Shown: piece by piece, positions 5,974-35,010 of the stretch
Position numbering within the stretch: the first letter of the stretch is position 1
How the letters are laid out: every line of letters begins with the position of its first letter
DNA from: a virus
DNA length: 36,466 bases
IMG/VR virus record: IMGVR_UViG_3300027851_000075
Coordinates: 1-36,466 of that record
Reading direction: 5' to 3' (one strand)
Position numbers and translations under genes: made by a program
The notes under the pieces: generated by a model
What the model was told of the DNA's origin: nothing
The model's database searches: none
What the model saw: only the letters and a program-made list of their open reading frames with translations

Positions 5974-6011
5974 AAAAAAACAAGCCGTGAAGACATTTCT
6001 ATCTTCACGGC
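5974..6011 (-). terminator. Intrinsic terminator of leader copy 1
   Basis: Stem GCCGTGAAGA/TCTTCACGGC with loop TAGAAATG, then TTGTTTTTTT on the minus strand, placed 27 nt before the scaffold start codon. Confidence 0.85.
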
Positions 6012-6104
6012 CGCTCATCTTCCGTCTTGCCCCGCGCTCTTCGCCGGGCTGCTGCTGGATTCAGGAGAATCGTAGATTCTCCCCTTTGAAAGGGCTATGC
6101 CCTT
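5974..6104 (-). ncRNA. Late-operon leader RNA, copy 1 (terminated, upstream of scaffold gene)
   Basis: Predicted transcript of about 130 nt from the promoter at 6111-6143. In order it holds: hairpin A (GAAAGGGC/GCCCTTTC, triloop ATA); hairpin B (GGAGAATC/GATTCTCC); hairpin C (GCCCGGCG/CGCGGGGC, one mismatch); a conserved unpaired stretch around CGGAAGATGAGCGG; and an intrinsic terminator. The same RNA heads all four late operons (24351, 28426 and 34834 are the other copies). Hairpin A is GAAAGAGC/GCTCTTTC in copy 2, so pairing is kept while sequence changes. A terminator before the genes implies that readthrough must be licensed, possibly by put-like antitermination. That role is inference. 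Confidence 0.75.
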
Positions 6105-6110
6105 TCATCC

Positions 6111-6143
6111 AGTATACCAAATTCCGCAATACTTTAAAAGCCC
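6111..6143 (-). promoter_or_regulatory. Late promoter P2, copy 1
   Basis: Extended -10 TGGTATACT on the minus strand. At the -35 position is a palindromic CTTTTAAAG inside a GGGCTTTTAAAG box present in all four copies, instead of TTGACA. The box looks like a binding site for a phage activator or an alternative sigma factor; this is inference. Confidence 0.7.
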
Positions 6144-6152
6144 CTATTTTCC

Positions 6153-6440
6153 TTACCCCGCCATCTCCAGCAGCGGGATCAAATCTTGATACAACCCCAC
6201 CGCGCTCATCGTCTGCAATTCCCCCGTCATCCGCAGCTCTTCTTCCGTCGACCGCAGCACCAGCACCGTATCCAGCAGCGCTTCCTGCTCCGCATCCAGC
6301 CCTTCCCGCAGCTTCTCCGTCAACTTCTCATTCAACAACTCCACCATCCACAGCGGGATTTTCCTGCCCTGGCTCGCTTCCCACGCCAGCGTACTGCCAA
6401 CTGCAACTACTTCTTCTTGTCGTACTTCATTGGTAATCAT
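6153..6440 (-). CDS. Cassette protein, copy 1 (95 aa, unknown; candidate late regulator)
   Basis: A 95-residue, mostly helical acidic protein with no recognised family. Two paralogues lie at 24534-24821 (nearly identical) and 28586-28888 (diverged, longer by five). Conserved blocks are AWEASQGRKIPLWMVE and ELRMTGELQTMSAVGLYQDL. The start chosen is the ATG nine bases after GGAG; an upstream in-frame ATG (6455) would put this Shine-Dalgarno inside the gene. The GGAG belongs to GGAGACACCC, which is complementary to the terminator loop of the RNA just upstream. Its position between that RNA and the late promoter suggests a regulator of late leaders, but nothing in the sequence proves it. Confidence 0.75.
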   Translation of the reverse strand: MITNEVRQEEVVAVGSTLAWEASQGRKIPLWMVELLNEKLTEKLREGLDAEQEALLDTVLVLRSTEEELRMTGELQTMSAVGLYQDLIPLLEMAG

Positions 6441-6466
6441 TTTGGGTGTCTCCATTTTTTTGCCCG

Positions 6467-6676
6467 CAAAAACAAAAAACCGCAACGCAGTCAACCGCCT
6501 GGAGACACCCATCTCGTGAGCAAATTTTCTGCGCTGCGGATCTTTGTCCACAAGCTTTAAATATATGTTAAATTAGTCGGTTTATGGCTATTCAATTAGG
6601 GCGGTTTGGTGCTTACTTTCATCACACCTGGTGTTTTAAAGTACAAAATTGCTCAAACTTAGAGGTGGGTGTCTCT
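6467..6676 (-). ncRNA. Cassette RNA (P1 RNA), copy 1
   Basis: Predicted approximately 210-nt RNA. Its predicted +1 (6676) begins AGAGACACCC. It ends in an intrinsic terminator: CCGCAGCGCAG (6529-6539) pairs with CTGCGTTGCGG (6480-6490), then TTTTTTGTTTTT. The terminator loop holds GAGATGGGTGTCTCC (6501-6515), complementary both to the RNA's 5' end (6662-6675) and to GGAGACACCC at the Shine-Dalgarno of the 95-residue gene (6444-6453). A second helix, TGAGCAA/TTGCTCA, extends the 5'-to-loop pairing. The RNA can therefore hide the ribosome site in trans or by readthrough, with its own 5' end competing. Confidence 0.7.
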
Positions 6677-6682
6677 GCCCAT

Positions 6683-6688: not shown

Positions 6689-6720
6689 GCACAATTGGTA
6701 TACAAATCCAACGCCTGTTT

Positions 6721-6856: not shown

Positions 6857-6863
6857 TATGGAG

Positions 6864-6936
6864 CGCCCCCGGCCAGAATTGAACTGACATATTTTGTTTC
6901 GCAAGAACAACGCTTTGTCCATTAAGCTACAGGGGC
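6864..6936 (-). tRNA. tRNA with anticodon TGC (Ala codon GCA), atypical
   Basis: 73-nt cloverleaf: acceptor GCCCCTG/CGGGGGC, D-stem GCTT/AAGC with loop AATGGACA, anticodon stem TTGTT/AACAA with loop CTTGCGA (anticodon 6901-6903), T-stem GTCAG/CTGGC with loop TTCAATT. No CCA is encoded and the discriminator is G. An alanine tRNA normally carries G3-U70 and A73; here 3-70 is C-G. The body (A20, AATGGA D-loop) is more arginine-like, so charging with alanine is doubtful. Confidence 0.85.
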
Positions 6937-24350: not shown

Positions 24351-24394
24351 ACAAAAAAAAGCCGTGGACTATGCAAATAATGCATAGTCCACGG
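24351..24394 (-). terminator. Intrinsic terminator of leader copy 2
   Basis: Long stem GCCGTGGACTATGCA/TGCATAGTCCACGGC, then eight T on the minus strand. The inner arms share no sequence with copy 1, yet pair fully. Confidence 0.85.
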
Positions 24395-24489
24395 CCGCTC
24401 ATCTTCCGTCTTTGCCCCGCGCTCTTCGCCGGGCTGCTGCTGGGTTCAGGAGAACCTACGACTCTCCCCTTTGAAAGAGCGTAGCTCTT
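24351..24489 (-). ncRNA. Late-operon leader RNA, copy 2 (upstream of tape measure)
   Basis: Same plan as copy 1, about 139 nt. Hairpin A is GAAAGAGC/GCTCTTTC, a compensated change from copy 1; hairpin B is GGAGAGTC/GGTTCTCC with wobble pairs. Loops and the CGGAAGATGAGCGG stretch are conserved. Confidence 0.75.
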
Positions 24490-24495
24490 TCATCC

Positions 24496-24528
24496 AGTAT
24501 ACCAAATTGCACCCAACTTTAAAAGCCC
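24496..24528 (-). promoter_or_regulatory. Late promoter P2, copy 2
   Basis: TGGTATACT with the GGGCTTTTAAAG box at -35. Confidence 0.7.
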
Positions 24529-24821: not shown

Positions 24822-24848
24822 TATGCCCGTCTCCATTTCATGCCCGTA

Positions 24849-25057
24849 AACCAAAAAACCACAGCGCAGTCAACCACCTGGAGACGGGCATCTCGTGAGT
24901 AGCTTTTCTGCGCTGCGGATCTTTGTCCACAAGCATTTGAATATTCAGATATGTTAATTTAGTCGGTTTATGGATATAGGCGGTTGGGTGCTTACTTTCA
25001 ATTGCACCTGGTATTTTAAAGTACAAAGTTACTCACATTGCGAGATTGCCCGTCTCT
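24849..25057 (-). ncRNA. Cassette RNA (P1 RNA), copy 2
   Basis: Begins AGAGACGGGC. Loop element GAGATGCCCGTCTCC (24880-24894) pairs with the 5' end (25042-25056) and with the Shine-Dalgarno region (24823-24834). Terminator stem CCGCAGCGCAG/CTGCGCTGTGG keeps pairing with a G-T at a different position from copy 1. The second helix is GTGAGTA/TACTCAC, compensated against copy 1. Confidence 0.7.
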
Positions 25058-25063
25058 GCCCAT

Positions 25064-25069
25064 AGTATA
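25064..25069 (-). promoter_or_regulatory. Promoter P1, copy 2
   Basis: Extended -10 TGCTATACT; predicted +1 at 25057. Confidence 0.65.
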
Positions 25070-25095
25070 GCACAATTTGTAGACAAATAGTACGT

Positions 25096-28425: not shown

Positions 28426-28464
28426 AAAAACAAACAAGCCGTGAAGACATTTCTATCTTCACGG
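28426..28464 (-). terminator. Intrinsic terminator of leader copy 3
   Basis: Same stem as copy 1 (GCCGTGAAGA/TCTTCACGGC), then TTGTTTGTTTTT on the minus strand. Confidence 0.82.
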
Positions 28465-28556
28465 CCGCTCATCTTCCGTTGTGCCCCGCGCTCTCCGCCG
28501 GGCTGCTTGGTTCAGGAGAATCGTAGATTCTCCCCTTTGAAAGGGCTATGCCCTTT
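28426..28556 (-). ncRNA. Late-operon leader RNA, copy 3 (upstream of connectors)
   Basis: Same order as copy 1. The C hairpin loop is GGAGAG instead of GAAGAG and the linker before CGGAAG differs by two bases, while stems are intact. Confidence 0.75.
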
Positions 28557-28562
28557 CAATCC

Positions 28563-28595
28563 ATTGTACCAAATTGCGCCCAACTTTAAAAGCCC
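28563..28595 (-). promoter_or_regulatory. Late promoter P2, copy 3
   Basis: TGGTACAAT with the GGGCTTTTAAAG box, which overlaps the stop codon of the cassette gene. Confidence 0.7.
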
Positions 28596-28888
28596 TCATT
28601 TTCCCCCGTCATCGCCAGTGCCGGGATCAAATCCTGGTACAACCCCACCGCGCTCATCGTCTGTAACTCCCCCGTCATCCGCAGTTCGTCTCCCATCGAC
28701 CGTACCACCAGCAGCGAATCCAGCAGTGCTTCCTGCTCTGCGCTCAGCCCGGCCCGCAGCTTTTCCGTCAACCGGTCATCCAATTCTTCCACCATCCACA
28801 ACGGGATCTTCCTGCCCTGGCTCGCTTCCCACGCCAGGTCACTGCCAACTGCTTCTACTTCTTCTTGCCGTATTTCATTGGTATTCAT
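28586..28888 (-). CDS. Cassette protein, copy 3 (100 aa, unknown)
   Basis: Diverged paralogue: changes cluster in the middle helix (EELDDRLTEKLRAGLSAEQ) and it is five residues longer (ENEGF) because the stop lies inside the P2 box. The core AWEASQGRKIPLWMVE and ELQTMSAVGLYQDLIP are unchanged. The ATG lies nine bases after GGAG in GGAGACCTCC (28892-28901). Confidence 0.75.
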   Translation of the reverse strand: MNTNEIRQEEVEAVGSDLAWEASQGRKIPLWMVEELDDRLTEKLRAGLSAEQEALLDSLLVVRSMGDELRMTGELQTMSAVGLYQDLIPALAMTGENEGF

Positions 28889-28913
28889 TTTGGAGGTCTC
28901 CATATTCAGCCCG

Positions 28914-29123
28914 CAAAAACAAAAAACCGCAACGCAGTCAACCGCCTGGAGACCTCCATCTCGTGAGCAAATTTTCTGCGCTGCGGATCTTTGTCCACAA
29001 GCTTTAAATATATGTTAAATTAGTCGGTTTATGGCTATTCAATTGGGCGGTTTGGTGCTTACTTTCATTCACACCTGGTGTTTTAAAGTACAAAATTGCT
29101 CAAACTTAGAGGTGGAGGTCTCT
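28914..29123 (-). ncRNA. Cassette RNA (P1 RNA), copy 3
   Basis: Begins AGAGACCTCC. Loop element GAGATGGAGGTCTCC (28948-28962), 5' partner 29109-29122, Shine-Dalgarno partner 28892-28901. It is nearly the same sequence as copy 1 apart from these three words, which all change from the ACACCC type to the ACCTCC type. Terminator stem CCGCAGCGCAG/CTGCGTTGCGG, then TTTTTTGTTTTT. Confidence 0.72.
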
Positions 29124-29129
29124 GCCCAT

Positions 29130-29135: not shown

Positions 29136-29196
29136 GCACAATTGGTAGACAAATCCAACAGATTCCTACAAAAAAACGTCCAGTTGCCTGACCGTT

Positions 29197-29336: not shown

Positions 29337-29343
29337 GAAATAG

Positions 29344-29416
29344 CTCCCCCGACCGGACTCGAACCGATATTTTTTTTACTGCGAGTAAAATGCCATGTCC
29401 ATTAGGCGACGGGGGA
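29344..29416 (-). tRNA. tRNA with anticodon CGC (Ala codon GCG), atypical
   Basis: 73-nt cloverleaf: acceptor TCCCCCG/CGGGGGA, D-arm GCCT AATGGACA TGGC (three good pairs), anticodon stem TTTTA/TAAAA with loop CTCGCAG (anticodon 29383-29381), T-arm ATCGG TTCGAGT CCGGT. No CCA; discriminator G; pair 3-70 is C-G. As with the tRNA at 6864, the alanine anticodon sits on a body without alanine identity. Confidence 0.88.
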
Positions 29417-34833: not shown

Positions 34834-34876
34834 CAAAAAAAGCCGCAGTCCATACGTTCATCGTATGGACCACGGC
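34834..34876 (-). terminator. Intrinsic terminator of leader copy 4
   Basis: Stem GCCG..GTCCATACG/CGTATGGAC..CGGC with a two-base internal mismatch, then seven T on the minus strand. The stem sequence is unlike copies 1-3. Confidence 0.82.
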
Positions 34877-34971
34877 CGCTCATCTTCCGTCTTTGCCCCG
34901 CGCTCACCGCCGGGCTGCTGCTAGTTTCAGGAGTATCTGGGATTCTCCCCTTTGAAAGGGCTATGCCCTTT
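34834..34971 (-). ncRNA. Late-operon leader RNA, copy 4 (upstream of holin)
   Basis: Same promoter, hairpin order and terminator as copies 1-3, but without the cassette RNA and the 95-residue gene. Hairpin B is weaker. It heads operon A (holin to portal). Confidence 0.75.
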
Positions 34972-34977
34972 CAATCC

Positions 34978-35010
34978 AGTATACCAAATTGCGTGGAACT
35001 TTAAAAGCCC
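34978..35010 (-). promoter_or_regulatory. Late promoter P2, copy 4
   Basis: TGGTATACT with the GGGCTTTTAAAG box at -35, as in the other copies. Confidence 0.7.

Follow-up and report, generated by a model that had tools for sequence, protein, structure and literature searches.

RNA-based phage immunity of the P4/C4 type is known from relatively few elements. The immunity RNA of phage P4, CI, pairs with one sequence upstream (seqA) and with another downstream (seqC), as recounted in PMC4825925, which cites Sabbattini 1995 and Briani 2000. The C4 RNAs of phages P1 and P7 vary in their specificity loop and the two phages are heteroimmune, and in Acinetobacter baumannii a multi-copy C4-like family varies mainly in the specificity loop (PMC5320573, PMC12197685). 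IsrK of prophage Gifsy-1 is another short RNA, which has its own read-through mRNA as a target in trans (PMC4825925). In attenuators of the pT181 type the choice between terminator and antiterminator is set by RNA-RNA pairing, and the account given in PMC3753616 includes orthogonal variants engineered through the recognition letters.

The stretch of DNA analysed here (36,466 nucleotides, referred to as the window) is the record of a temperate tailed phage, with recognisable genes for the large terminase, portal, capsid, tape measure, endolysin, primase and two tyrosine integrases. It carries three copies of a module that, judging from its nucleotide sequence, is on balance probably a self-addressed RNA switch; the small protein under its control would be made at the start of the late genes.

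Layout of the modules in the window

The module is about 750 nt long and all three copies lie on the minus strand (Table 1). Each copy consists of a promoter (P1), a leader of about 250 nt, a small ORF, a second promoter (P2) and a structured tail RNA of about 130 nt that ends with an intrinsic terminator, followed by a block of virion genes. Every virion-gene block is preceded by one module unit with the exception of the lysis-terminase block, in front of which a solo tail RNA is placed. The four tail RNAs share the order promoter, hairpin, hairpin, terminator, each stands directly 5' of a virion-gene block, and their terminator stems differ in letters; these RNAs are possibly sites of antitermination. 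The transcription start of the copy 2 leader (+1) was placed at 25061 from the position of the -10 box.

Table 1. Positions of the module parts and tail RNAs in the window.
Feature	Positions	Strand	Details
Copy 1 leader and ORF	6153..6680	-	S1 6675-6666, S2 6511-6502, S3 6453-6443, ORF 6440-6153; word ACC
Copy 1 tail RNA	5974..6142	-	upstream of scaffold and major capsid genes
Copy 2 P1	25064..25088	-	TATACT 25069-25064; quasi-palindrome ATTTGTCTACAAAT 25088-25075 just upstream, candidate operator
Copy 2 S1 GAGACGGGCA	25047..25056	-	leader +6 to +15
Copy 2 neighbouring helix, 5' arm GUGAGUA	25030..25036	-	partner UACUCAC 24901-24895; C-G to U-A with respect to copies 1 and 3
Copy 2 terminator hairpin, 5' arm CCGCAGCGCAG	24908..24918	-	
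Copy 2 S2 TGCCCGTCTCCA, i.e. TGCCCGTCTC + CA	24879..24890	-	terminator loop; complementary to S1 and S3
Copy 2 terminator 3' arm CTGCGCTGTGG and U6 tract	24853..24869	-	
Copy 2 S3 TGGAGACGGGCA, i.e. T + GGAGACGGGCA	24824..24835	-	contains Shine-Dalgarno GGAG, 9 nt before ATG
Copy 2 small ORF, 95 aa	24534..24821	-	ATG 24821-24819; no known family
Copy 2 tail	24358..24527	-	P2 TTTAAA-16-TATACT, hairpins, terminator 24396-24360; directly 5' of tape-measure gene
Copy 3 leader and ORF	28586..29127	-	S1 29122-29113, S2 28958-28949, S3 28901-28891, ORF 28888-28586; word CTC
Copy 3 tail RNA	28428..28594	-	upstream of connector and major tail genes
Solo tail RNA, without switch module	34839..35009	-	upstream of holin, endolysin, terminase and portal genes

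Two exact strings mark the promoters. Within the window, the quasi-palindrome ATTTGTnTACnAAT is confined to the P1 promoters of the three copies (6694-6707, 25075-25088 and 29141-29154), and TTTGGTATAC to P2 of copies 1 and 2 and of the solo tail (6112-6121, 24497-24506 and 34979-34988); both are candidates for shared operators.

Two phage tRNA-Ala genes (minus strand, 6863-6936 and 29343-29416), with anticodons UGC and CGC, sit just upstream of copies 1 and 3. Immediately behind each lies a sigma-70-like promoter with a short RNA (downstream to ~6720 and ~29215, respectively); the 5' end of this RNA is perfectly complementary, over 15 or 14 nt, to the anticodon arm of that same tRNA-Ala. No tRNA genes were found in the records of the related phages described below. 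Other contigs from the same metagenome break within the near-identical ORFs of copies 1 and 2 (at 6272 and 24555), so that the joins of the window at these two points rest on short unique stretches.

Three complementary sites and competing folds

A segment of about 10 nt in each leader (S2) is the exact complement of both a site near the leader 5' end (S1) and a site that includes the Shine-Dalgarno sequence of the small ORF (S3). The three copies differ there by a 3-nt word (ACC, GGG and CTC in copies 1, 2 and 3, respectively), set in a GAGAC-NNN-CA frame and matched at 3/3 sites in each copy. A 10-mer with two perfect complements appeared in none of 2000 dinucleotide shuffles per leader and is present in all three real leaders. 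The statement of the initial annotation that copy 2 uses ACGGGC at all three sites is correct when S2 is read as the complement. The computed energies of the S2:S3 duplexes are -21.9 to -26.9 kcal/mol with the own word and -11.9 to -17.4 kcal/mol with a foreign word from the same phage group, the own-word duplex being 6–15 kcal/mol stronger within each group. A trans-encoded partner bearing these words was not found elsewhere in the window, and any action in trans would therefore have to come from the short RNA of the module, which contains S1 as well and could self-pair.

The distance between the Shine-Dalgarno sequence and the ATG is 8–9 nt in all five distinct members known (the three window copies and two from related phages, see below). 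The window copies have a further in-frame ATG upstream, near +226, which would make S3 coding; it was rejected as the start codon, as the related phages have no ATG there and keep the spacing. The gene downstream, annotated initially as one of 95 residues, has that length in copies 1 and 2; in copy 3 the frame continues to 100 aa.

In the window copies S2 lies between the two arms of an intrinsic-terminator hairpin (CCGCAGCGCAG/CUGCGyUGyGG), as part of its loop, and a U6 tract comes next. The G-U pair of this stem (G-T in the DNA) moves from pair 6 in copies 1 and 3 to pair 3 in copy 2 with 11/11 pairs kept; that this pair moves had been noticed at first. The second compensated helix of the same annotation, located next to these sites, is real in both copies (UGAGCAA/UUGCUCA in copy 1, GUGAGUA/UACUCAC in copy 2) and contains a single true double change: column by column, one C-G pair is replaced by U-A and one G-C pair is gained. 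The compensation is thus smaller than quoted, since the two quoted strings sit one register apart.

By sequence, the leader has the parts of an attenuator, a G+C-rich hairpin, a U tract and a mutually exclusive helix, with the 11-bp stem present in 5/5 members. S1:S2 and the terminator stem cross each other and therefore compete, being either mutually exclusive or joined in a pseudoknot. When each helix was enforced in turn, the S1:S2 fold at the end of the U tract was computed at -55.2 kcal/mol in copy 1 (terminator, -51.8 kcal/mol) and at -55.8 kcal/mol in copy 3 (terminator, -52.6 kcal/mol). For the full leader of these two copies all three alternative folds lie within ~4 kcal/mol. The terminator fold is the computed minimum in copy 2 and in the related phages, and the S1:S2 state may therefore be only a kinetic intermediate in them. 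A possible leader peptide, MKVSTKPP(N), is seen in copy 1 (6622-6599, from +59 on) and copy 3 (29068-29039, from +60 on).

Alternative folds able to operate in cis and of similar energy in copies 1 and 3 are what a purely cis-acting attenuator would show, in which S1:S2 would be the antiterminator, opposed by the terminator and by sequestration of the ribosome binding site in S2:S3, and the words would be compensated drift carrying no address. Its trigger could be a ligand, a protein or translation of the possible leader peptide MKVSTKPP; this candidate is preceded in copies 1 and 3 by an AGGUG-like Shine-Dalgarno sequence, but it starts with UUG and its end differs in copy 2. This explanation is rather unlikely, mainly in view of the pattern of word changes analysed in the next section.

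In the self-addressed switch that we favour, the S1:S2 fold would form first during transcription and let the polymerase pass. The terminator fold would release a short RNA of ~205 nt with S2 exposed. The S2 segment of this RNA, or S2 in cis, would then pair with S3 (and S1) of read-through transcripts bearing the same word, burying the Shine-Dalgarno sequence and setting the translation of the small ORF, with S1 serving as antiterminator or decoy. As the pairing would be word-specific, a copy would respond to no word but its own, and phages that differ in their words would be mutually deaf, much like the heteroimmune pair P1 and P7 with their C4 RNAs. We infer that the words may act between RNA molecules, in trans.

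Members in related phages and the change of the words

A scan with the capsid protein led to closer relatives of the phage (~51% identical in the capsid). A covariance model built from the three window copies (R1), the check suggested in the initial annotation, found matches in these phages, each with its end where a small ORF of 110 aa begins: L055/L056:1063-1193 (39 bits, E 1.6e-6) and L054:1143-1273 (37.2 bits, E 4.2e-6). The leader promoter is matched at 11/12 positions in L055. The words at S1, S2 and S3 are GAGCTAGCA in L055 and GAGCTGACA in L054. In both phages a stem (CCCTATTGTGG/CCACAATAGGG) holds S2 in its loop and has TTTT after it, the U tract being short (UUUUGCG), and S3 contains GGAG 8 nt before the ATG. 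The terminator stem has new letters at 6/11 pairs and is fully paired; together with S1:S2, it lies outside the covariance model and both are likewise intact. The three-way complementarity is thus present in 5/5 distinct members.

Over these five members S2:S3 shows both-side changes in 7/12 pairs, with 58/58 cells paired and none broken. The covariation score, obtained with an alignment fitted to the S2:S3 structure itself, was reached by 0/500 shuffles, and slid controls pair at 35–45%. A descriptor free of sequence (S1 equal to S3, S2 inverted, a stem and a T run around S2, and an ATG after S3) returned exactly the known members in 856 kb and none in five randomisations; as the members were already known when it was composed, this result speaks for specificity and not for blind discovery.

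The searches beyond this group were negative within their scope. Peptide and DNA pattern scans of viral contigs matched only IMGVR_UViG_3300006033_000225 and _001301, both 100% identical and, as fragments of the same genome, not independent evidence. The same pattern scan of genome contigs gave no match, and the phage and plasmid collections gave no convincing one. Profile HMM, covariance model and protein profile, as well as a repeat search, revealed no module in phages related by terminase only (~25–38% identity). Rfam holds models of C4 and isrK, and at its gathering threshold only tRNAs were matched in the whole window; copies 1 and 2 gave only chance-level matches up to E 5. There was no match to a described covariance model of P4 CI, P1/P7 C4, IsrK, T-box or any other riboswitch.

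The differences between close pairs of leaders are concentrated in the words. The leaders of L054 and L055 (177 nt) differ by six substitutions, all of them in the words: positions 12-13 at S1, 111-112 at S2 and 172-173 at S3, with a two-base swap (AG/GA) at each site. Elsewhere the two phages differ by seven substitutions in the 333-nt ORF and by many more in the 200 nt upstream. The modules of L055 and L056 are identical and come from different metagenomes, so that these words are stable and not sequencing noise. Between copies 1 and 3, from +1 to the U tract, substitutions are found only in the words, plus two one-base indels, and their ORFs differ at 43 sites. The earlier idea that the addressing diversifies within a family gains support in this respect, as the related phages add two words and their leaders differ nowhere else.

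Neutral words held in helices should change more slowly than their flanks, because each step would break pairings. For the compensated drift of a cis-acting attenuator the same holds, each single change breaking pairings at the other sites, yet the words are the sole leader substitutions in both pairs (in copies 1 and 3, up to the U tract). A mutational origin was also considered, in which template switching at the quasi-palindromes S1, S2 and S3 spreads one change to all sites and the words have no addressing meaning. S1/S2 and S2/S3 are indeed inverted repeats 40–155 nt apart, and the word changes are always concerted, as in the AG/GA swap at each site. Such a process accounts for the concert but not for new words that arise and persist only there; it requires an initial mutation, and it should also hit the conserved repeat ends, which are invariant within either pair. 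This explanation is improbable. The word-only divergence, whose main limit is that it rests on two independent pairs, points either to selection for new words, as expected for RNA-RNA recognition, or to a repair process rewriting all three sites. Under the self-addressed reading, the modules may, tentatively, represent a new phage RNA family with a three-site word rewritten in concert under diversifying selection, acting between phages as a self/non-self immunity of late control and within the genome as insulation of the three late units.

Late genes, small proteins and comparison with described systems

In the related phages the gene order is early genes (including primase), module, second promoter with terminator, and terminase-portal-scaffold-capsid. 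Their records show one module only, within an unshuffled late operon. The tail-RNA model (R2) has no match in these phages; the tail RNA is common to them only in its position and in the string GATGAGCG adjoining the terminator. The portal and scaffold-capsid genes adjoin in L053-L056 (portal-scaffold gap of ~10–20 nt) and are apart in the window, where the corresponding break points (29511 and 5947) carry modules.

The modules could also be read as a repeat cassette kept mainly for recombination and shuffling of gene blocks, with the RNA as a by-product. The modules lie at the edges of virion-gene blocks which adjoin one another in the relatives and are apart in the window, and copies 1, 2 and 3 are mosaics of one another. 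However, the single copy in the unshuffled late operon of the relatives implies that the RNA is kept where there are no repeats, and the structure is conserved while the letters are not, which makes a cassette of this kind very improbable.

In phage lambda, Q, whose function is summarised in PMC4825925, is a small regulatory gene just upstream of pR', followed by a short leader, tR' and then the lysis, terminase and head genes. The module is placed comparably, at the junction of early and late genes and before a second promoter-leader-terminator and the virion genes. Such a position makes regulation of the late genes, for instance by antitermination, the most likely role of the small protein behind the self-addressed switch. 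This is the weakest step of the proposal, and the antiterminator role is a guess, as it is based on position alone and the proteins have no known family. The 95-aa protein matched no Pfam, PHROG or PDB sequence, the 110-aa protein of the related phages had no PHROG or significant PDB-sequence match, and no homology between the two was detectable. The predicted models are helical and of low confidence, Foldseek gave no match below E 0.2 for the 95-aa model, and none of the fold comparisons was informative. In contrast to lambda, the small proteins match no antiterminator family, including the Q type, several such units are seen in the window, and antitermination is here only proposed.

With the P4 immunity RNA, as described in PMC4825925, the module shares a segment complementary to sites upstream and downstream in its own target leader (in 5/5 members here) and an outcome, proposed here, of termination or expression. 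With respect to that description of seqA, seqB and seqC, the differences are that S3 is the Shine-Dalgarno sequence of the first gene, that S2 is in the loop of an intrinsic terminator, and that three differently worded copies are found in one genome. The C4 RNAs of P1 and P7 are likewise antisense to a ribosome binding site of the same transcript, with specificity residues that vary while the rest is conserved. However, C4 is a three-stem RNA of ~77 nt, processed by RNase P and pairing through two loops (a' and b'), whereas the module has one site, a larger leader and a complement of S2 at the 5' end (S1), and its predicted fold differs.

IsrK resembles the proposed switch in its promoter, terminator, alternatively folding read-through mRNA and short terminated RNA, and it is linked to late antitermination control through AnrP and AntQ (PMC4825925). 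It differs in that it activates translation, and no family with matched words is described in PMC4825925. The switch, as predicted, is of the P4, C4 and IsrK kind in its way of working, yet it stands outside every described family, having neither an Rfam nor a protein-family match. If the proposal is true, specificity would be evolving naturally in a minimal form, two or three letters at three sites, and swapping of the words would give a direct handle on RNA-address recognition of self and non-self among temperate phages. Finally, with respect to the pT181 sets covered in PMC3753616, which were engineered, the variants seen here are natural and have all their sites within one RNA, and they would constitute a source of ready-made orthogonal RNA switches.
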